Positions 12,601-24,418 of a stretch of DNA of 64,000 nucleotides are shown here, one piece after another. Source of the DNA: Bacteroidaceae bacterium (GTDB lineage Bacteria > Bacteroidota > Bacteroidia > Bacteroidales > Bacteroidaceae); the NCBI GenBank assembly GCA_017547165.1, contig JAFYQK010000001.1, positions 221,422 through 285,421 on the forward strand, read 5' to 3'. How positions within the stretch are numbered: the stretch's first letter is position 1; each line of letters opens with the position of its first letter. A model generated the notes under the pieces. It ran no database searches. It saw only the letters and a list, made by a program, of their open reading frames with translations, and was not told the DNA's origin. A program made the translations under genes and the position numbers.

Positions 12601-12601
12601 G

Positions 12602-12674
12602 TCGGATAGAGGCGACTCGAACGCCCGACCCCTACGTCCCGAACGTAGTGCGCTACCAACTGCGCTACTATCCG
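12602..12674 (-). tRNA. tRNA-Pro (anticodon CGG)
   Basis: Read on the minus strand, a 7-bp acceptor stem CGGATAG/CTATCCG, an anticodon stem CTACG/CGTAG with loop TTCGGGA (anticodon CGG, T33 in place), and a T-arm containing GTTCGAGTC. Discriminator base A at 12602; CCA is not encoded. The comEC ATG begins one base after its 3' end. Confidence 0.93.
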
Positions 12675-12696
12675 AATGCATTTGTATAATGCTATG

Positions 12697-12704
12697 CAAA
12701 GATA
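12697..12704 (-). promoter_or_regulatory. -7 element of the tRNA-Pro/comEC/rlpA unit
   Basis: TATCTTTG on the minus strand, 22 bp upstream of the tRNA 5' end. No good TTTG at -33. Confidence 0.5.
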
Positions 12705-12795
12705 CATTAAAAAAGGAGATAATCGTAAAACGAGAATGGTAAAATGCTTTTGAGAGTTAAAAATGTAATTGAAATTGAAAAAACTTGTAGAAATA

Positions 12796-12827
12796 TTTGG
12801 GGGTTTTATTAAAAAGTCCTACCTTTG
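12796..12827 (+). promoter_or_regulatory. Promoter of tRNA-Phe
   Basis: TTTG (12796-12799), 20-nt spacer, TACCTTTG (12820-12827): a textbook Bacteroidota sigma-70-type promoter 25 bp before the tRNA. Confidence 0.75.
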
Positions 12828-12852
12828 CACTCGCTAAACAGATAAAGGTGAA

Positions 12853-12925
12853 GGTGCCATAGCTCAGTTGGTAGAGCAAAGGACTGAAAATCCTTGTGTC
12901 CCCGGTTCGATTCCTGGTGGCACCA
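12853..12925 (+). tRNA. tRNA-Phe (anticodon GAA)
   Basis: Acceptor stem GGTGCCA/TGGCACC, D-arm AGCTCAGTTGGTAGAGC, anticodon stem AAGGA/TCCTT with loop CTGAAAA (GAA), T-arm with GGTTCGATTCC, discriminator A. CCA is not encoded. A terminator follows at 12929. Confidence 0.95.
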
Positions 12926-12928
12926 CAG

Positions 12929-15766: not shown

Positions 15767-15958
15767 ATGAAAGATTTAAATAGACTAAAAGTAGTATTGG
15801 TTGAACAAAAGAAAACCGGCAAATGGCTTGCCGAGCAGTTAGGCAAGGACCCCTCAACAGTTTCTAAATGGTGCTCAAACAAAATGCAGCCATCGTTGGA
15901 GATGCTGTCGCAAATAGCAAAGACTCTTAATGTAGATACAAAAGAGTTGATAAATTAA
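15767..15958 (+). CDS. XRE-family small regulator of the R-M locus
   Basis: 63 residues, essentially one helix-turn-helix domain: WLAEQLGKDPSTVSKWCSNK gives the turn and recognition helix. Proteins of this size head type I restriction-modification loci in Bacteroidota, where they probably time expression of the nuclease, in the manner of C proteins. It starts 29 bp before the nuclease-methylase gene on the same strand and should form an operon with it. Confidence 0.85.
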   Translation: MKDLNRLKVVLVEQKKTGKWLAEQLGKDPSTVSKWCSNKMQPSLEMLSQIAKTLNVDTKELIN

Positions 15959-15987
15959 GATTATTTTATGTCATAAGACTATAAAGA

Positions 15988-18218
15988 ATGGAACTTCAAA
16001 TTAAGAACAATAAGATATTTGCCCCTCTCAAAAATAAGGAACTTGTTTTGACCCCTGAGGAGCGTGTGCGCCAAGAGTACATTTGTCGCTTGGTAAATCA
16101 CTATGGATATGACTTGTCGCAAATGGAGCAAGAACTGCAGGTAAATAATTCTCATCGCGGTCAAGGTAAGGCACGGGCTGATATTGTGGTATGGAAGTCT
16201 GCCACTGCAAGGAGCAACGAAGATGCTGCGGCAATCGTTGTTGAGTGCAAAGCAGAGCATATTACCATTCGTGAGGAGGATTACTTTCAGGGCTACAACT
16301 ATGCAGCTTGGGCAGGTGCTGATTTTTTTGTTACCACCAATCTCAAAGAGACCCGAGTATTCAAGGTGAACAAGGGTAAACTGCCCAAGCGTTTGGAGGA
16401 AATTGTGGATATTCCTAAAGTTGAAGAACTTAATAACGCTAAAAAGATAAAAGAGCTGTTAAGTCAGACCAAGGCATTCACTCGCGATGAATTTAGTAAA
16501 CTTCTCTTTAAGTGTCATAATATTATCCGTAATAATGATAAACTCTCTCCTGAGGCTGCATTTGACGAGATAAGTAAGGTTTTGTTTATGAAAATACGAT
16601 ACGAACGAAATAATACTGGCACACAAATTTCTCAGCGGAAGAGTTTGCAAAGTTACGTGAGGCTTATGACAAAACAAAATCAAAGCAGAGTTTGCCTTTC
16701 TATCAGCAGTTGTTTGAGCGTACAAAGGAGGATTATGTAAAAGATGATCTCTTCGAGCCTAACGATACGATCAAAATCAAGGAGGCAAGTTTTGAGGCGA
16801 TTGTAAAGGAGTTGGAAGTTTATAATCTATCTCGCACTGCAGATGACGTTAAGGGTATTGCCTTTGAGAAGTTCTTGGGCAAGACTTTCCGTGGCGAGTT
16901 GGGTCAATTCTTCACGCCTCGTACCATTGTGGATTTTATGGTAGCACTTCTCGACCCCGAAGAGGGTGAGATTATCTGCGATCCCTGCTGTGGTAGTGGT
17001 GGATTCTTGATTAAGGCGTTCGAGTATGTGCGTGAGAAGATTGAGAATGATATCCAGAGAGTAAAGGAGCAAATTAAGGCACAGCTTTTTGATGAAAAAT
17101 ATGATTCTTTGAGCGACAAGAAAAAGGCTGATATTGACGAGCGTGTCGATGAATATTTCACCATTCTCAATCGAGAGCTCGACACTATTCACACTGATAG
17201 TCGTTTGCAACATCTGTCGAGTGATTGCATCTTCGGCACAGATGCCAATCCTCGTATGGCTCGTACTGCCAAGATGAATATGATTATGCATGGCGATGGC
17301 CACGGTGGCGTACATCATCACGATGGCTTGTTGAATGTTAATGGCATTTTCGAGAATCGCTTCGATGTGATTCTGACCAATCCTCCTTTCGGGTCACGAG
17401 TTGAGAAGAGTTTGAAAATTACCGAGGCTGACAAGTTTACAGACGAGGCAAAAATCAAACACTACACTAAGCGTTATGGCGAGGAGTACACCAAGGCCTT
17501 GGAACAGGTCAATGGTAATATCGGTGAATCTGTCCTCAGTCTCTACGACTCAGGCAAACTTAGCGGCTTGACCGAGGTGTTGTTTATTGAGCGTTGCTTG
17601 CGACTGCTCAAACCAGGTGGTCGCTTGGGTATCGTATTGCCGGAAGGCGTGTTGAATACCACTCAACTCCAAAGCGTGCGTGAACTATTCGAGGGTCTGG
17701 CGAAGATTATTTTGATTACTTCAATCCCACAAGATGTCTTCATGGCATCGGGTGCAACTGTGAAGCCAAGCCTTATGTTCTTTAAGAAGTTTACGGCTGA
17801 GGAGGTCGCACAATACGAACAGGCAAAAACAAAGGCTTACGAGCAGGTAACGGCTAAATATGCCGAGGAACTTGCTACATTAAACACCTTTATTGCCGAC
17901 AAGAATAATCCTCGCTCAGAAATTAAGACGAAGAAAGCAGAATTTAAGGCACTTGAAGCAAAAATTGCCGAAGAGGTTAAGCCAATAATTAAACAACTTT
18001 TCGATTACCAGATTCCTATCGCTCAGGTACAGAAGGCTGGTATTACCACTACTGGTGCCGAGTGCGAGAACGAATTGGAAGAGTTGCTCAAAGAGTATGC
18101 ACCTTATCGCAAGGAGCATAAACTATGGGAGGCGACTGCAAAACGCTATGAATATAAGGTTGAAGGCAACCACCTTTACAAGAAGTTGAACAACGGCGAA
18201 TGGGAGGAGATATGCTAA
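15988..18218 (+). pseudogene. Nuclease-methylase fusion (HSDR_N + N6-adenine methyltransferase), split by a 1-nt frameshift
   Basis: Two overlapping frames: 15988-16740 (250 residues) and 16692-18218 (TTG start). Frame 1 runs correctly to ...RYERNNTGTQI, then becomes nonsense; frame 2 read upstream gives FSAEEFAKLREAYDKTKS, which continues the same protein. One extra T in the TTT at 16628-16630 restores a single chain of about 743 residues. The N-terminus is a PD-(D/E)XK nuclease of the HSDR_N type (Asp65 in ARADIVV, Glu86-x-Lys88 in VVECKAEH). The rest is an N6-adenine methylase with DPCCGSGGF (motif I) and LTNPPFGS (motif IV). No separate HsdR is encoded, so cutting and methylation are carried by one chain, as in BcgI-like enzymes. 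The frameshift is either decay or a sequencing error. Confidence 0.85.
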
Positions 18219-19576
18219 GTGCAATGAAATATATTTCGACAGTCCCATTTAGCGGAATGTTCAATTGGGATGTAAAAATCATACTTGGGGATAATATCAT
18301 AACCTCTAAGAAGCATCCTATGAAACCCTTTTCGTATTTTACTAGACCTGCCAATATCCAAAAGGTCAAAATTGAAGACGAACAGGAATATAAGATAATA
18401 GGCGTTAGATCTTATGGATTGGGCGCATACAAGAATAGGATAACAAAGGGTAAATATCTAAAAATGAAAGTATATCAACAGGCAAAATTAAATCATTTAT
18501 TTTGGTGCAAGGTTGATACTAAAAATGGTGCTTTTGGTATTATCACCCAGGAACTATCTGATGGTATTGCATCTTCCAATATGATGTTTGCCGAGTTGGA
18601 TCTATCTCGAATTAATCCAGACTATTTACAACTTCTATTTAGATGTCCTAAAATTAATACATATATGGATAGTATGGTAACAGGGACCACAAATAGAAAG
18701 TATATAAGATTTTCAGATTTACTTAACAATGTTAAGGTCCCCATTCCATCATTAGAGGAGCAGAATGAGTTGGTAAAGGCATACAATGATATTATGGTTT
18801 TCATAAAGATGGAAGAGATGAAAGCCATTGATATTGACTTAAAAGCAACGGTTAATGTCCGGAATGCGTTAGGAGTAGCCCCATACCCCGGACATATCGA
18901 GAAGAAATTAGTGCATTATATTGATTATTGCGCAATAGATTCTTGGAGTGTCCCTCAGATATTACACGCAGAAAATTCTCCATTTGGGAAAAGTAAATTT
19001 GCTTGCAGGAAATTATCGGATTTGGCATTTATAAACCCTAAGACAGACTTGTCTATGTTGTCAGATGCGGATAACATGTCATTTATTCCTATGGAAGATA
19101 TTTCAGATGACTATGGAGAATGGATCGGTAAACGAGTTGGTAGTAAATCAAATATAAAAGGATATACCAAATTCCAGGATGGTGATATTATATGGGCAAA
19201 AATAACCCCTTGTATGCAAAATGGCAAATCGACAATATTAAAGAACTTGGTTAATGGAAAAGGATATGGGTCAACTGAATTTCATGTTATTCGCATAAAG
19301 TCGAACGATGTGTTACCTCAGTATATCCATACTCTATTACGCCACTTCGATGTGTTATCTGATGCTAAAAAGTATTTTACAGGATCAGCCGGTCAACAAC
19401 GAGTTCCAACATCATACTTGGAGAATCTACTAATACCAATTCCTCCATTAGATGTTCAAAAGCAAATAGCAGATGAATACACAAAAGGCATTGAACAAGC
19501 CAAGCAGGGGTATATGAAGATATACAATTACAAACAAGAATTGAAGAAGAACTTCGAAACCCAAATTTTTGAGTAA
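18200..19576 (+). CDS. hsdS: Restriction-modification specificity subunit (HsdS-like)
   Basis: About 458 residues; starts at ATG 18200, 18212 or 18224 all overlap or abut the methylase stop (18216-18218). Two target-recognition domains, each ending in the family's conserved segment: VKVPIPSLEEQNELVKAY (near 190) and LLIPIPPLDVQKQIADEY (near 425), followed by helical spacers. Each domain reads half of a bipartite DNA site and together they direct the methylase and nuclease. AT-rich compared with the methylase, as is common for S subunits that exchange domains. Confidence 0.88.
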   Translation: MGGDMLSAMKYISTVPFSGMFNWDVKIILGDNIITSKKHPMKPFSYFTRPANIQKVKIEDEQEYKIIGVRSYGLGAYKNRITKGKYLKMKVYQQAKLNHLFWCKVDTKNGAFGIITQELSDGIASSNMMFAELDLSRINPDYLQLLFRCPKINTYMDSMVTGTTNRKYIRFSDLLNNVKVPIPSLEEQNELVKAYNDIMVFIKMEEMKAIDIDLKATVNVRNALGVAPYPGHIEKKLVHYIDYCAIDSWSVPQILHAENSPFGKSKFACRKLSDLAFINPKTDLSMLSDADNMSFIPMEDISDDYGEWIGKRVGSKSNIKGYTKFQDGDIIWAKITPCMQNGKSTILKNLVNGKGYGSTEFHVIRIKSNDVLPQYIHTLLRHFDVLSDAKKYFTGSAGQQRVPTSYLENLLIPIPPLDVQKQIADEYTKGIEQAKQGYMKIYNYKQELKKNFETQIFE

Positions 19577-19579
19577 TAT

Positions 19580-21001
19580 ATGGAAGATAGAGAAACCATA
19601 CACACTGAGGTCGCAAGAATCAAACAGCTAAGGGCTGATTACGATGCTTTAGCTATGGATATCAACAGCCGTAGGACTATCGAGGCGTATCACACATGGT
19701 ATGACGAATCGAGCGTTGTGTTTAGCCATTACTTTGATGATAATTGCAAAGAGTATAGCAATTTTACCTGTGTAGATAATAATGGAAATGGCTATGTGTT
19801 AAACGGTAATTACCAAAAGATTCGTAAGGATTTTTGTGTGCTGGTAGATAAATTGGAACGAGGTGATTTTGGCTTGAATACGCAAACTGTAATCGCACCA
19901 ACACAACAATCGACATCATCATCGAAGAAAAGAATTTTTATTAGCCACGCATCTAAAGATAAAGAATTGATAGGTAAATTTGTGGATTCAATATTCCTTT
20001 TAGGAATGGGTATGGTCTCTGAGATTATAGCCTACACCTCTCGTGAAGATACTGGTGTACCGGCAGGAGAAAGTATCCCGCAATTTATCCAAGACAACAT
20101 TGCGTGTGCAGATATTGTTTTGTTGATGATTTCTGACAACTACAAGAGTAGCGAGGTATGTTTAAATGAGATGGGTGCAGCGTGGGCACTAAATAAGCAT
20201 ATTATCCAGATTTTACTACCTAATACATCATTTGATAAATTAGGTTGGTTATGTTCATTGGATAAAGCCTTGAAAATAGATGATGCTGATTCAATAGATG
20301 GTCTATGTGAAGTATTCACAGACAAACTAGATATAGGCATTAAGCCATCAGCATGGAATAGGAACAAGGCTGCATTTCTTGCATACTGTTCAACATTCTC
20401 AACAACACTACTACCTTCTGTTATTGAGCCAGAAGTTGTAGAGGTTACAGAAGACGATGTGGAAGAATGGGGATTTTTGGATTACAAAGACCATTTAGAT
20501 GAGGAAACTGTCAATGTAACCAACATATGCTCTACATTAACAGATGCCATGTTGAAGCATAATGAAATGCTTAATTCTAATACTCGAAAGCTACAGAGCA
20601 TCAATCCTACTCATCCAAACATTTCCCAAGCTAAAGGAATTATGAGGACTACTGCCAATGGAATGGATAAACTATCTTTAATATTCGAAGATAATACCCC
20701 ATTATTGCAGTCTTCATTCTTTAACATGGTAGACTATGCTACCAAAATGAAGTCTCTTACAGCACCTGATAGTGAAGAGACTATGGAGGAAGAATATAAT
20801 GCAATTAACACACTTCTAAAATCAATATCTGAGGCAAAATCAGGTTGTACTGGGTTTAGGGATGCTATTGACACATTACCTAAGGCAGAAAAAACTATCA
20901 ATAAGTCAAAGAAGAGACTATCTAATAATTTAACCAATATTATTGGAGTATTAGATGAGTGTATCTCAAAAGGTCAGGAATTATCAAAAAGTATTTTATA
21001 A
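19580..21001 (+). CDS. TIR-domain defence protein
   Basis: 473 residues, starting 4 bp after hsdS. Residues 1-115 are an uncharacterised N-terminal region. A TIR domain spans about 117-250: KRIFISHASKDKEL opens it, and SDNYKSSEVCLNEMGAAW holds the likely catalytic Glu197, matching the S-x2-C-L-x-E arrangement of NAD-cleaving TIR domains. A helical C-terminal region of about 200 residues could oligomerise or sense a trigger. Bacterial TIR proteins with this Glu usually deplete NAD+ or make a cyclic-ADP-ribose signal during phage infection. The TIR sits in the middle of the chain, which differs from most known TIR effectors. Function here is inferred from domain and context. Confidence 0.82.
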   Translation: MEDRETIHTEVARIKQLRADYDALAMDINSRRTIEAYHTWYDESSVVFSHYFDDNCKEYSNFTCVDNNGNGYVLNGNYQKIRKDFCVLVDKLERGDFGLNTQTVIAPTQQSTSSSKKRIFISHASKDKELIGKFVDSIFLLGMGMVSEIIAYTSREDTGVPAGESIPQFIQDNIACADIVLLMISDNYKSSEVCLNEMGAAWALNKHIIQILLPNTSFDKLGWLCSLDKALKIDDADSIDGLCEVFTDKLDIGIKPSAWNRNKAAFLAYCSTFSTTLLPSVIEPEVVEVTEDDVEEWGFLDYKDHLDEETVNVTNICSTLTDAMLKHNEMLNSNTRKLQSINPTHPNISQAKGIMRTTANGMDKLSLIFEDNTPLLQSSFFNMVDYATKMKSLTAPDSEETMEEEYNAINTLLKSISEAKSGCTGFRDAIDTLPKAEKTINKSKKRLSNNLTNIIGVLDECISKGQELSKSIL

Positions 21002-21017
21002 AGCAAATCTCTAATAT

Positions 21018-21845
21018 ATGGGAAAAGTAATAACTACATACCTAATTGACGGAGATCCCAAGGGAACTCAATACGCATTCATCAGCAACAAAATTTGTCA
21101 GATGTTTGTTGTACCACGCTCAAATCTCGCATATCTCAATACGCAGGAGAAGTTGCAGAAACCTGCGTTTTACATACTTCTCGGTGAAGATGAAGCGACC
21201 AAACCACAAGCATATATAGGCGAAACTGAAAATTTCCGTGAGCGTGTGAAAGACCACGACAGCAAGAAGTCTTTTTGGCAAAAGGCACTCATATTTGTAT
21301 CGAAAGATGCTGATATGACCAAAGCTGATGTGCAATACTTGGAACATAAGGCTATAGCAGAAGCAAAGAAGGCCAATGCTTTCGTGTTAAATGATAATAA
21401 GCAAACTCCTAAAGCTCCAAATTTGCCCGAATATCAAAAGGACTCAATGGATGAATTCTTTGAGGATGTGAAGTTCTTGGCGTCGTTCATTGGTTGTAAT
21501 ATCTTTGAAGTATCACAACCAAAGACGGAACATATTTTCTATACCAAAGGTCGAGGATGTGAGGCAAAGGGTTTTTACAACTCTAATGGTTTTACTGTTC
21601 TGAAAGGCAGTGTAATCTCCAAAACGATGGTGCCATCATTCAACTGGAGGGATAAACGTGAAAGCATGCTAAAGGAGTATACCGCCATTGAGAATGATAA
21701 ATTAGTATTGACATCTGATAAAACTTTCTCAAGTCCTAGCACTGCTGCAGACTTCTGTGTAGGCAGTAGCAACAACGGCTGGCTTGTTTGGAAAGACAAG
21801 GATGGTAACACATTGGATTCAGTTTATAGAAAGCAGTTGGAGTAA
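21018..21845 (+). CDS. GIY-YIG nuclease with DUF4357
   Basis: 275 residues, 16 bp after the TIR gene. The GIY-YIG core lies at about 50-125: FYILLGED, YIGETENFRERVKDH (with the conserved Arg), then an Asn in the VLNDN region. The C-terminus (about 235-275) is DUF4357, with PSTAADFCVGSSNNGWLVWKD. This two-domain family is found with restriction-modification and other defence genes, and probably cuts DNA. The first 45 residues are extra and unassigned. Its stop overlaps the next ATG (TAATG), so it is translationally coupled to the membrane protein. Confidence 0.82.
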   Translation: MGKVITTYLIDGDPKGTQYAFISNKICQMFVVPRSNLAYLNTQEKLQKPAFYILLGEDEATKPQAYIGETENFRERVKDHDSKKSFWQKALIFVSKDADMTKADVQYLEHKAIAEAKKANAFVLNDNKQTPKAPNLPEYQKDSMDEFFEDVKFLASFIGCNIFEVSQPKTEHIFYTKGRGCEAKGFYNSNGFTVLKGSVISKTMVPSFNWRDKRESMLKEYTAIENDKLVLTSDKTFSSPSTAADFCVGSSNNGWLVWKDKDGNTLDSVYRKQLE

Positions 21846-22447
21846 TGGTTATGGAAAATTATAATATGATTATCGCAGGTGTTATAGGGTCTGCTGTAAC
21901 TTTGCTATTAACTGCGCTTCTCGATTATTTAAAAGAGAGACATCATTCTAAGATTGAGATTCGCAAACTTGTTTTTCAAAGAAAAGTTGATGCAGCAGAA
22001 AATGCCGTATCTTGGCTTCAAGAAGGAATAGATTGTTTAAGGATGATGCAATCAGCTTGTGACGATATTGAAGAAGATTATAATCCAGTAGTTTGCGAGC
22101 GACTGTTCAAGTCTGCCACACAAGCAAATATTTTGTTTGAGAATGCAGGCAATTCTCTAAATCGCATTTATTTATATTATAATTTTGCAGATATTGAAAA
22201 CAAATACAATACATTACAATCCTGGGAATATATAAATTTTGCTTTAACGGAAATAGGGAAATTAGATCAACAAGCACTTGCTTTACGGAATAGCGGTTTA
22301 TCTGATGATAGTGAAGAAATCAAATCATTACAAGCTAAAGCAATAAAGTTTTTTAGAAATTTATCAAAATCTCTTAACGCTAATATTGCTACGATGGTAG
22401 AAATACTTAATAAGTTAAGGTTGGAATTTGATAAATATTCAAAATAA
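21845..22447 (+). CDS. Membrane-anchored helical protein of unknown function
   Basis: 200 residues. One N-terminal membrane helix (about 8-28, IIAGVIGSAVTLLLTALL), then a soluble, mostly helical, charged region. I do not recognise a family. The overlap with the preceding stop (TAATG) and the order TIR / GIY-YIG / membrane protein suggest it belongs to the same functional unit; a membrane anchor or membrane-damaging partner is one possibility, but this is inference. Confidence 0.6.
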   Translation: MVMENYNMIIAGVIGSAVTLLLTALLDYLKERHHSKIEIRKLVFQRKVDAAENAVSWLQEGIDCLRMMQSACDDIEEDYNPVVCERLFKSATQANILFENAGNSLNRIYLYYNFADIENKYNTLQSWEYINFALTEIGKLDQQALALRNSGLSDDSEEIKSLQAKAIKFFRNLSKSLNANIATMVEILNKLRLEFDKYSK

Positions 22448-22472
22448 ATGCCAAAACTAAGAATAAAACCAT

Positions 22473-22544
22473 ATGACCGAAACCAACCGCATAGAATATA
22501 AAAGAGAATTGCCCCCTGAACTTGATATAAAGCCTAAGAAATAA
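22473..22544 (+). pseudogene. 5' stub of an AlbA_2/Schlafen-type ATP-binding protein gene
   Basis: ATG at 22473 opens MTETNRIEYKREL, the characteristic N-terminus of AlbA_2 (Schlafen-like) ATP-binding proteins, then diverges and stops after 23 codons at 22544. The matching C-terminal piece lies 1.2 kb downstream, beyond the DUF1016 gene. Confidence 0.6.
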
Positions 22545-22561
22545 TTAAGTTTGCAAAGAAT

Positions 22562-23721
22562 ATGAATAACAATATGACATCAACCGATTTGAAGCAAGCC
22601 GTTCTGACAATTAAGACGGCAATATTGCAGAGCCAAAGTCGCGCTGTAAGAATGGTGAGCGGCACGCAACTGTCATTATACTTTGGCGTGGGGCTTTATG
22701 TATCTGCTAATTCTCGCAGAGGAACTTGGGGAACAGGAGCCATTGATGCCATAAGTGAACAACTGCGGAGAGAACTTCCTGGACTACGTGGCTTCTCGGC
22801 ACAAAACATCAGAAACATGCGCCAATTTGCAGAATTTTGGCAACCATTCTTAATTCACTCGCCAATGGCGAGCAAATTAGGAATTGAATCTTTGCATGCT
22901 GAAATAGAATGCGATAGATTGTCTTTAGCAAAATGGTCGCCATGGCGAGCGAAATTAACCGAGATGAGTTCTTGGGCATCAGCTTCTCTCATCATATGGA
23001 GATTCTACACAAGACAAAAAACATTGATGAGGTTCTGCTTTGTATACACGAGACAGTAGTGCATCAGTGGGATAAATATACTTTGAGATCTATACTGAAG
23101 ACTGGTATACCTGCACCTGATGGCACTGCTCCAAATAATTTTATACAGACAATACCATCTACCCGACAGGCGATAAAAGCTATAAGGATGTTCAAAGATG
23201 AGTATTTGCTTGATTATATCAATGTGGAAGATATCGATGCACAGGAAGAAGATGTGGACGAAAGATTGGTAGAGCAGCGAATTGTGCATAATATCAAGCG
23301 ATTCATTATGACACTTGGAAGAGACTTCACATTCGTAGGCAATCAATATCATTTGGAAATATACGGTGAGGAGATGTGGAGCGACTTGCTATTCTTTAAC
23401 CGAGAACTGAATGCTTTGGTTGCTATAGAACTAAAAATTGGAAAATTCAAGCCTGCATACTTAGGACAATTGCAAGCCTATCTGCAAGTACTTGACGATA
23501 AGGTACGCAAGCCACATGAGAATCCAAGTATAGGCATTGTACTTTGCAAAAGTGCTAATCAGGCGTATGCAGAGTATGCTGTTCGTGATTACAACAAGCC
23601 GATGGGCGTTGCAACGTATAAAACAATCGCCGATATGCCAAAAGAGATGCAGCATACCCTTCCTGATATCGAAGACCTAAAAAAGTTGATGAATGACGAT
23701 GAGGATACCTTGACTATGTAA
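22562..23721 (+). pseudogene. DUF1016 (YhcG-type) PD-(D/E)XK nuclease gene with a 1-nt frameshift
   Basis: Frame 1 (22562 to about 22941) gives the DUF1016 N-terminal domain: GTQLSLYFGVGLYVS, RELPGLRGFSAQNIRNMRQF. Frame 2 (from about 22942 to 23721) gives the end of that domain (MASEINRDEFLGISFSHHMEI) and the YhcG C-terminal nuclease with Asp in WSDLLFFNREL and Glu-x-Lys in VAIELKIGKFKPA. The join is at TCGCC/ATGGCG (22937-22950); an identical motif at 22859-22873 reads TCGCCAATGGCG, so one A was lost. Repaired length is about 386 residues, normal for the family. DUF1016 nucleases often sit inside type I R-M loci. Confidence 0.82.
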
Positions 23722-23980
23722 GTACCATGCAAGTGACCATGCAAGTGTACAAGTGGAGAAACTTGTTTCTATATTGACTGGTGAGATGGGGCGTTCGGAA
23801 TTGCAGGGATTGTTGTCTATTAAAAATAGAGATTATTTTAGAACGGACTATTTGAATCCTGCTATTAGTAATGGTTATATAGAACTTACGATTCCTGATA
23901 AGCCCAATAGTCAGAACCAAAAATACCGTCTTACAGCAAAGGGGATTACTTTGAAAAATAGCCTAACAAATAATAAGTAA
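23711..23980 (+). pseudogene. 3' stub of the AlbA_2-type gene (C-terminal winged helix)
   Basis: The frame that gives a 75-residue ORF from GTG 23753 extends upstream as YHASDHASVQVEKLVSIL to a TGA at 23711. EMGRSELQGLLSIKNRDYF and ELTIPDKPNSQNQKYRLT are the usual C-terminus of AlbA_2/Fic-associated ATP-binding proteins. No separate start makes sense, so this is the tail of a gene whose middle is gone. A 12-bp direct repeat (ACCATGCAAGTG, twice, 23724-23747) encodes the HASDHAS stretch, a short His-rich repeat common in this family. Confidence 0.6.
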
Positions 23981-23988
23981 TTTTGCTT

Positions 23989-24042
23989 AACCTATCATAT
24001 AATATGTAAAAACCAGACTTTTTCTATATTTTATGATAGGTT
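23989..24042. repeat. 11-bp inverted repeat at the right end of the island
   Basis: AACCTATCATA (23989-23999) and TATGATAGGTT (24032-24042) are perfect complements 32 nt apart, in the 96-bp gap between the AlbA_2 stub and the small unknown gene. It could be an operator pair, a transcript hairpin or an old recombination end. Confidence 0.5.
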
Positions 24043-24076
24043 ATGATTATGAACCATTTTAGTAATACGGTTAGAT

Positions 24077-24418
24077 ATGAATAATTCTGTAATAGATGTT
24101 GCTTTTATTGCAGCAAAGGTAGCCGCAATAAAGGATGAAAAGGCAAGAATGATTGTTGGTGGAGCATCATTATTATATAATGTAGCTCAAATTGCTCGTT
24201 TTCGTTCAATGATTGTAGAGCTGTCTCAAATATGCAATTACATTGTATCCAAAGCTCAGATTATAGGCTCTTATACACTAGAAGAATATAATCTTGCTGT
24301 TGAATGTCAACGACAAATTGAAGAGTGCTATCAGCAGATAGCCAAGCACGGAACAATGACCGTCATAGATAGTATATCTTTGCTAATTGATGCCTTTAAC
24401 AATCTTAACAGAATGTAG
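24077..24418 (+). CDS. Small helical protein of unknown function
   Basis: 113 residues, no recognised family. The first half is mildly hydrophobic (FIAAKVAAIKD, MIVGGASLLYNVAQIA) and the second half is helical and charged (EECYQQIAKH). It is the last gene of the AT-rich island on this strand. There is no close partner: 96 bp from the stub before it and 127 bp to the exporter start. It might be a small effector or immunity-type protein; this is a guess. Confidence 0.45.
   Translation: MNNSVIDVAFIAAKVAAIKDEKARMIVGGASLLYNVAQIARFRSMIVELSQICNYIVSKAQIIGSYTLEEYNLAVECQRQIEECYQQIAKHGTMTVIDSISLLIDAFNNLNRM

Follow-up and report, generated by a model that had tools for sequence, protein, structure and literature searches.

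Three genes lie directly behind a DNA modification and specificity pair in a Bacteroidaceae genome, encoding a TIR protein, a GIY-YIG/DUF4357 protein and a one-helix membrane protein, and the question they raise is whether they constitute a single anti-phage module, as a sequence-only reading of the locus had proposed, or are separate passengers at a common site. We analysed them within a stretch of 64,000 nucleotides (hereafter the window) from a 2.26-Mb assembly of 26 contigs that is given as 84.5% complete and is G000 in our genome set; other genomes are likewise given by G numbers and loci by L numbers. The gene structure described in that reading was exact in every detail: the three frames are open, all lie on the forward strand, and they are spaced by a 16-bp gap (21002-21017) and then a 1-base TAATG overlap (Table 1). 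Such tight packing may mean that the three genes are co-transcribed and co-operate in this strain. We consider it likely that these are exchangeable defence genes lined up as cargo beside HsdM/HsdS: a self-sufficient TIR NADase, a solo nuclease and a rare third passenger. We do not read the trio as one machine because the three genes do not co-occur in the other genomes searched, because similarity to other loci comes in gene-sized blocks, and because relatives of the TIR gene are found between unrelated genes.

Table 1. Features of the locus, in window coordinates.
Feature	Position	Strand	Basis
Small HTH (Cro/C1-type) protein, first gene of the locus	15767..15958	+	Pfam HTH_3, E 9.4e-12
HsdM, first piece, HSDR_N nuclease-like domain	15988..16740	+	Pfam HSDR_N_2, 4.6e-27; PADLOC PDLC03018 positions 2-224
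HsdM, second piece, N6 adenine methylase domain	16692..18218	+	Pfam N6_Mtase, 4.3e-35; PDLC03018 positions 238-747
HsdS specificity subunit	18200..19576	+	Pfam Methylase_S, 4.6e-14
TIR protein, 473 aa	19580..21001	+	N domain 1-111, SpbK-type TIR 112-267 with Glu197, C domain 268-473
GIY-YIG/DUF4357 protein, 275 aa, PADLOC candidate PDC-S14	21018..21845	+	PDC-S14, 7.4e-85
One-helix membrane-anchored protein, 200 aa	21845..22447	+	Open frame and hydrophobic stretch; start possibly 21851
Remnant, 5' end of SLFN_AlbA_2/HATPase_c_4/Fic-like_C (AlbA) gene	22471..22532	+	DNA identity to gene starts of relatives; domains from the L021 gene
DUF1016/YhcG nuclease gene (PADLOC PDC-S02), two frames, between the AlbA remnants	22562..23721	+	Pfam, PADLOC
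Remnant, 3' end of AlbA gene (Fic-like_C) and sequence beyond	23713..24044	+	Pfam Fic-like_C, 5.8e-24 on 23753-23977
113-aa protein without Pfam match	24077-24418		Pfam search

All genes between 15.8 and 24.0 kb of the window lie on the forward strand, the first of them encoding the small HTH protein that is presumably a regulator. The trio had been placed inside an R-M locus, a description that needs amending: R-M genes (HsdM in two frames, and HsdS) are found upstream only, and the trio stands directly downstream of this modification and specificity pair, with 3 bp between the end of HsdS and the start of the TIR gene. We take HsdM and HsdS to resemble BcgI. The first HsdM piece departs from the frame of its relatives after about residue 214, and the counterpart is a single frame in L021 (748 aa) and L020 (746 aa); HsdS is present yet HsdM is in two frames, so that the pair is not an intact one of Type I or BcgI-like R-M, and no separate HsdR was recognised among the window proteins scanned. 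On the other side of the trio, between 22471 and 24044, the DUF1016 gene lies between the two ends of the AlbA gene, as if the middle of the latter had been replaced. Over 57-67 bp, the DNA of the 5' remnant is 90-96% identical to the start of the gene in L020, L021, L022, L052 and L134; that of the 3' remnant is 83% identical to L052 (23713-23943) and 86% to L021 (23893-24044). The stretch 23983-24417 has 91% DNA identity to L022, where the same kind of locus adjoins, and the 113-aa protein may therefore belong to the moving segment; further downstream lie an ABC transporter and then a luxR-type regulator. Divergent genes for tRNA-Pro and tRNA-Phe occupy 12601-12926, about 3 kb before the locus. 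Rfam returned nothing besides these two tRNAs, and at 46-64 kb, towards the end of the window, no defence gene was recognised by eye among frames of at least 250 aa.

Signs of decay surround the trio, in that HsdM and DUF1016 are each in two frames and the AlbA gene survives as remnants; moreover, the TIR gene of L020 (L020:8001-9410) has an in-frame stop at residue 194, just ahead of the position of the catalytic Glu, which is either an inactivation or an assembly error. The whole could thus be a decaying island without present function. We hold this to be very improbable: all three genes of the trio are open, the frame breaks of HsdM and DUF1016 may both be assembly errors, and dN/dS between relatives is low, at 0.03-0.08 for the TIR core and 0.01-0.03 for the GIY-YIG gene (each calculable in four of five codon comparisons, dS being saturated or not calculable in several).

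Whether the three genes belong together was asked of 393 genomes of the order, with the window's own genome counted and weak matches up to E 1e-3 included. Relatives of the TIR protein were present in 16 genomes, of the GIY-YIG/DUF4357 protein in 37 and of the membrane protein in 7, and all three were present in one, G000 itself. The trio thus recurred in 0 of the 392 other genomes, and the membrane gene was found at 0 of the 63 loci that a contig scan with the TIR protein returned. On these counts the three-gene system was rejected; the proposal of an anti-phage role survives for the TIR protein (as spbK-type) and the GIY-YIG protein (as PDC-S14) taken separately, for each of which it is plausible, and is not supported for the module, which lacks co-occurrence. 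The TIR and GIY-YIG genes have five genomes in common (G000, G083, G273, G279 and G310), where about 1.5 would be expected if they were independent (16 x 37 / 393); in the four besides G000, the two genes are either on separate contigs or some 15 kb from each other, and contig breaks may hide their adjacency in G083, G273 and G279. In the contig scan, the GIY-YIG gene stood within 2 kb downstream of the TIR gene at 4 of the 63 loci (L020, L021, L022 and L052). It follows the TIR gene in three of the seven loci with a three-domain TIR protein of at least 48% identity (L018-L024) and was not found near it in L018, L019 and L023, the sequence of L024 holding less than 0.6 kb downstream of the TIR gene, too little to judge.

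Comparison of individual loci indicates that genes change places one at a time. L020, L021, L022 and L052 share the row HsdS, TIR, GIY-YIG, Hypoth_Ymh protein and SLFN_AlbA protein, relative to which the membrane gene of the window stands in the place of the Ymh gene. An AAA ATPase gene separates TIR and GIY-YIG in L020, and its remnant does so in L021; the gap is 16 bp in L022 and 3 bp in L052. Recurrence of the TIR-GIY arrangement in L022 and L052, and of the same order in L020 and L021, indicates that a preference for that slot exists. In L052 the slot is held by a different TIR protein of 268 aa, ahead of a 91%-identical GIY-YIG, and in L134 a fragment of the GIY-YIG start precedes a HATPase gene, after which comes AlbA. 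At eight further loci (L118-L125), DNA similarity to the window covers the GIY-YIG gene and stops within about 12 bp of either end; the one other similar stretch is an extra 87-bp GIY-YIG fragment in L122. Since L119 and L125 have a common neighbourhood, these amount to at most seven independent contexts, and none of the eight stretches had a labelled TIR relative. By eye, no flanking motif or end is common to all 13 GIY-YIG copies, and subgroups from the same kind of locus have one side in common. A pairing of the TIR gene with the AAA ATPase gene was also considered and rejected as general, the ATPase following the TIR gene only in L020 and as the remnant in L021. No AAA ATPase relative reached E 1e-5 at other loci, the nearest being L055 (1.2e-5, some 8 kb off on the opposite strand) and L071 (0.004); the TIR gene of L019 is followed by a short open start that resembles, by eye only, the start of an AAA protein.

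These observations bear on a joint system in which the TIR protein would work together with the GIY-YIG protein, and perhaps with the membrane protein as well, the nuclease or the anchor for example sensing the phage and triggering the TIR. The close spacing, the order retained in four other loci and the five genomes with both genes speak for such a system, which we nevertheless judge unlikely in view of the single genome with the full trio, the GIY-YIG stretches without a labelled TIR and the TIR genes without GIY-YIG, the ATPase gene or its remnant intervening in L020 and L021, and the exchange of the TIR itself in L052.

Reading the trio as exchangeable cargo directs attention to the TIR protein. 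Pfam TIR_2 matches residues 119-215 (E 4.8e-10), and residues 112-266 align with SpbK (PDB 9phb; E 4e-20). Glu197 had been singled out as catalytic-type, and rightly, as it aligns with SpbK Glu192 in the common CLNEMGA motif; PMC11984713 describes Glu192 as required in B. subtilis both for the loss of NAD+ and for defence. The PADLOC spbK profile matches the protein at 2.8e-34 over residues 9-267, and it also matches all 24 proteins of an alignment picked from among the TIR relatives, including those in which the TIR comes first, so the profile mainly reports the TIR core. The TIR lies in the middle of the 473-residue chain, as had been described, and both flanks are without a match in the libraries searched (PADLOC, and Pfam above cut-off). 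Taken alone, neither the N nor the C domain matched a PADLOC profile at E<=1, a test that is weak for the N domain because the N domains of other spbK-matching proteins, taken alone, also gave no spbK match. Against Pfam, each domain gave only sub-threshold families, none above the curated cut-off, and a profile comparison of the N domain with 14 N domains of short Bacteroidales relatives returned a probability of 0.1. As the N domain alone has no spbK match, though the profile covers residues 9-267, only the TIR is counted as SpbK-like. Comparison with solved structures yielded weak matches, to helical or calmodulin chains, for the N domain, the C domain and the membrane protein; the sole match below 0.001, of the C domain to a spike-derived helical chain (7y9n, 5.4e-4), is taken as coiled-coil likeness. 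The possibility that the TIR protein is an already described effector acting alone is therefore partly borne out: its core is SpbK-type and its relatives have no fixed partners, but its two flanking domains match no library entry searched.

The outer domains also differ from the core in their rate of change. Across five codon comparisons dN was 0.025-0.086 for the TIR core, 0.143-0.355 for the N domain and 0.043-0.470 for the C domain, that is, 2.1-8.1 times the core value for the N domain and 1.7-5.5 times for the C domain. Similarity along the gene is mosaic-like, the nearest relative being L021 at residues 1-66 (0.80-0.93) and L018 at residues 298-462 (0.93-0.99). This shift, together with the faster outer domains, fits recombination of the outer domains around a conserved core, and from their sequences they look recombined. 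The relatives closest by identity (L018, at 87%, L019, at 77%, and L020) are from assemblies labelled Rikenellaceae, Alistipes and Bacteroidales. Matches to the TIR protein in 19 plasmid and 4 phage records span at most 40% of it, around the TIR, and no match to the C domain was confirmed in viral contigs. The window's genome has a second SpbK-type TIR gene (L133:6520-7332, on G000:C21), of 270 aa and with a TIR of 45-50% identity; it overlaps the end of an HsdM gene and lies directly before a gene 68-69% identical to the Fic gene of L018, a PDC-S04 member.

The setting behind HsdS is itself recurrent, the TIR gene following HsdS at a distance of 2-18 bp in L020, L021, L022, L052 and L132 as well as in the window, and it raises the possibility that the TIR protein guards the R-M system: were HsdM/HsdS blocked by a phage anti-restriction protein, or were modification to fail, the TIR would be released and kill the cell, much as PrrC responds when EcoprrI is inhibited. 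PrrC and PARIS, described as R-M guardians in PMC12707154, are precedents, and relatives of the TIR gene adjoin type I, Eco57I-like, type III-like and BREX genes. Their surroundings were tabulated in 67 rows, L028 and L130 being one locus counted twice and L001, L002, L003, L004, L006, L007, L081, L088 and L042 being left out as duplicates or short. Of the 129 neighbours, the 73 that share the strand of the TIR gene and lie within 100 bp of it were compared with Pfam, in a count that has no background control and in which one protein can match several families; among the best 25 of 48 families were Eco57I (7), N6_Mtase (6), Methylase_S (6) and MmeI_Mtase (3), then BsuBI/PstI endonuclease, N6_N4_Mtase, putAbiC, DUF4357 and Fic (2 each), and BrxL, PglZ, DUF1016 and AbiH (1 each). 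In 14 of the 67 rows, neither side of the TIR gene had a same-strand neighbour within 100 bp. This variety of modification neighbours, with the neighbourless rows, suggests that TIR genes of this type are often at modification-based loci and have no fixed partner. The TIR-first relatives of L026 (L026:7977-9645) and L027 (L027:7995-10686) end 4 bp before the next gene, which in L027 encodes an N6_N4 methylase, probably of type III.

The TIR genes of L018 and L019 are flanked by a putAbiC gene and a Fic gene. Other surroundings fit a guard less well: the TIR-first gene of L025 lies between metabolic genes (GGGtGRT and fucosidase); the immediate upstream neighbours in L024 and L028 are AbiH, which the TIR gene of L024 follows, or unmatched; and L023 has an AAA_14/DUF4143 gene downstream on the other strand and, upstream, only a helicase-domain gene 878 bp away, possibly a defence gene in its own right. 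The R-M types beside the TIR relatives also differ widely, HsdM is split in the window, and the general clustering of defence genes accounts for the same adjacency. Consequently, we give a guard of the R-M system a low probability. There is a similarly small chance that the protein is a two-sensor NADase, whose N and C domains, exchangeable through recombination, would watch for different signals of phage or of R-M inhibition and act on one SpbK-type trigger, a NAD-depleting restriction guard behind hsdS.

DUF4357 covers residues 214-266 of the second protein (1.3e-18), and GIY-YIG residues 51-113, at 21.4 bits against a Pfam cut-off of 22.6. Among the candidate catalytic residues of the GIY-YIG domain, Tyr66, Arg76 and Glu109 are invariant across all 11 aligned copies, L118 has another residue in place of Gly68, and residue 74 and the Asn vary. 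PDC-S14 is matched nearly over its full length (residues 2-271 on positions 16-296 of 301). PMC4619093 notes the combination of GIY-YIG with DUF4357, and PMC12988326 describes PDCs as mostly untested single-gene candidates. The third protein has a single strongly hydrophobic stretch (residues 8-26) and no Pfam match at E<=1, consistent with the earlier view of it as a one-helix membrane protein of no known family; its start is perhaps better set at 21851, where its best relative, in L126 (36% identity), begins. That relative lies in a type III R-M locus (L126:4629-6894), with a type III restriction helicase gene on one side and, 4 bp after it, a further SLFN_AlbA-type gene. The membrane gene thus precedes an AlbA-type gene in L126 and the AlbA remnant in the window, two cases only. 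In 201 genomes of the window's own family, its profile matched twice, to the window and to a stop-bearing fragment; it had no plasmid or phage match, and none was confirmed in viral contigs. With the partial plasmid and phage matches of the TIR protein, these searches led us to reject an origin on a phage or plasmid.

For the trio as a row of exchangeable cargo, the following mode of action can be suggested. The TIR protein would probably act on its own as an abortive-infection NADase of the SpbK type. The analogy with SpbK suggests that its outer domains would hold the TIR in an inactive state until a phage product binds to one of them, whereupon the TIR domains would cluster and hydrolyse NAD+ through Glu197, halting cell and phage alike. 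Since neither outer domain has a PADLOC match and both have sub-threshold Pfam matches only, SpbK-like sensing is an analogy here. The GIY-YIG/DUF4357 protein would be a solo nuclease acting separately, probably by cutting or nicking DNA that enters the cell, and the one-helix protein would be the rare third passenger. The candidate three-gene system is accordingly struck from the list, and the three-domain TIR protein becomes the part of interest: if its flanking domains prove to be sensors, the family lets one ask how a common NADase core gains new phage triggers. The locus also illustrates clearly how cargo at R-M loci of Bacteroidales is exchanged gene by gene.

Set against known systems, the TIR protein resembles Thoeris ThsB weakly (PDLC00436, E 1.3e-7), far less than it does spbK, and no SIR2/ThsA partner appeared among the Pfam and PADLOC matches listed for the ten proteins at 15767-23977; Thoeris was rejected on both grounds. 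With SpbK of Bacillus subtilis ICEBs1 it shares the TIR core (residues 112-266) and the CLNEMGA motif with the catalytic Glu. It differs in an N domain that alone has no spbK match (a weak test) and in an added C domain, so that 206 residues follow the TIR where SpbK ends with it, and we therefore do not claim full SpbK membership. The TIR-first proteins of Bacteroidales assemblies (L025, L026, L027, L029 and L030) share both TIR core and C domain at 33-41% identity and lack the N domain, with 0-38 residues ahead of the TIR. The GIY-YIG protein, for its part, is like the PADLOC defence candidate PDC-S14 over nearly its full length, with no difference seen. A search of the open-access literature found no paper joining at least four of R-M, embedding, TIR domain, GIY-YIG and phage defence candidate. 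That defence genes are embedded in R-M loci is already known from DarTG2, which, as PMC12255303 describes it, lies between hsdS and hsdR of an E. coli type I R-M locus and accompanies the published search idea of 'guilt-by-embedding'. There hsdR follows the cargo, whereas downstream of the trio no R-M gene was found and the cargo genes are others; common to both is the arrangement of defence genes behind hsdS with a small regulator gene upstream.
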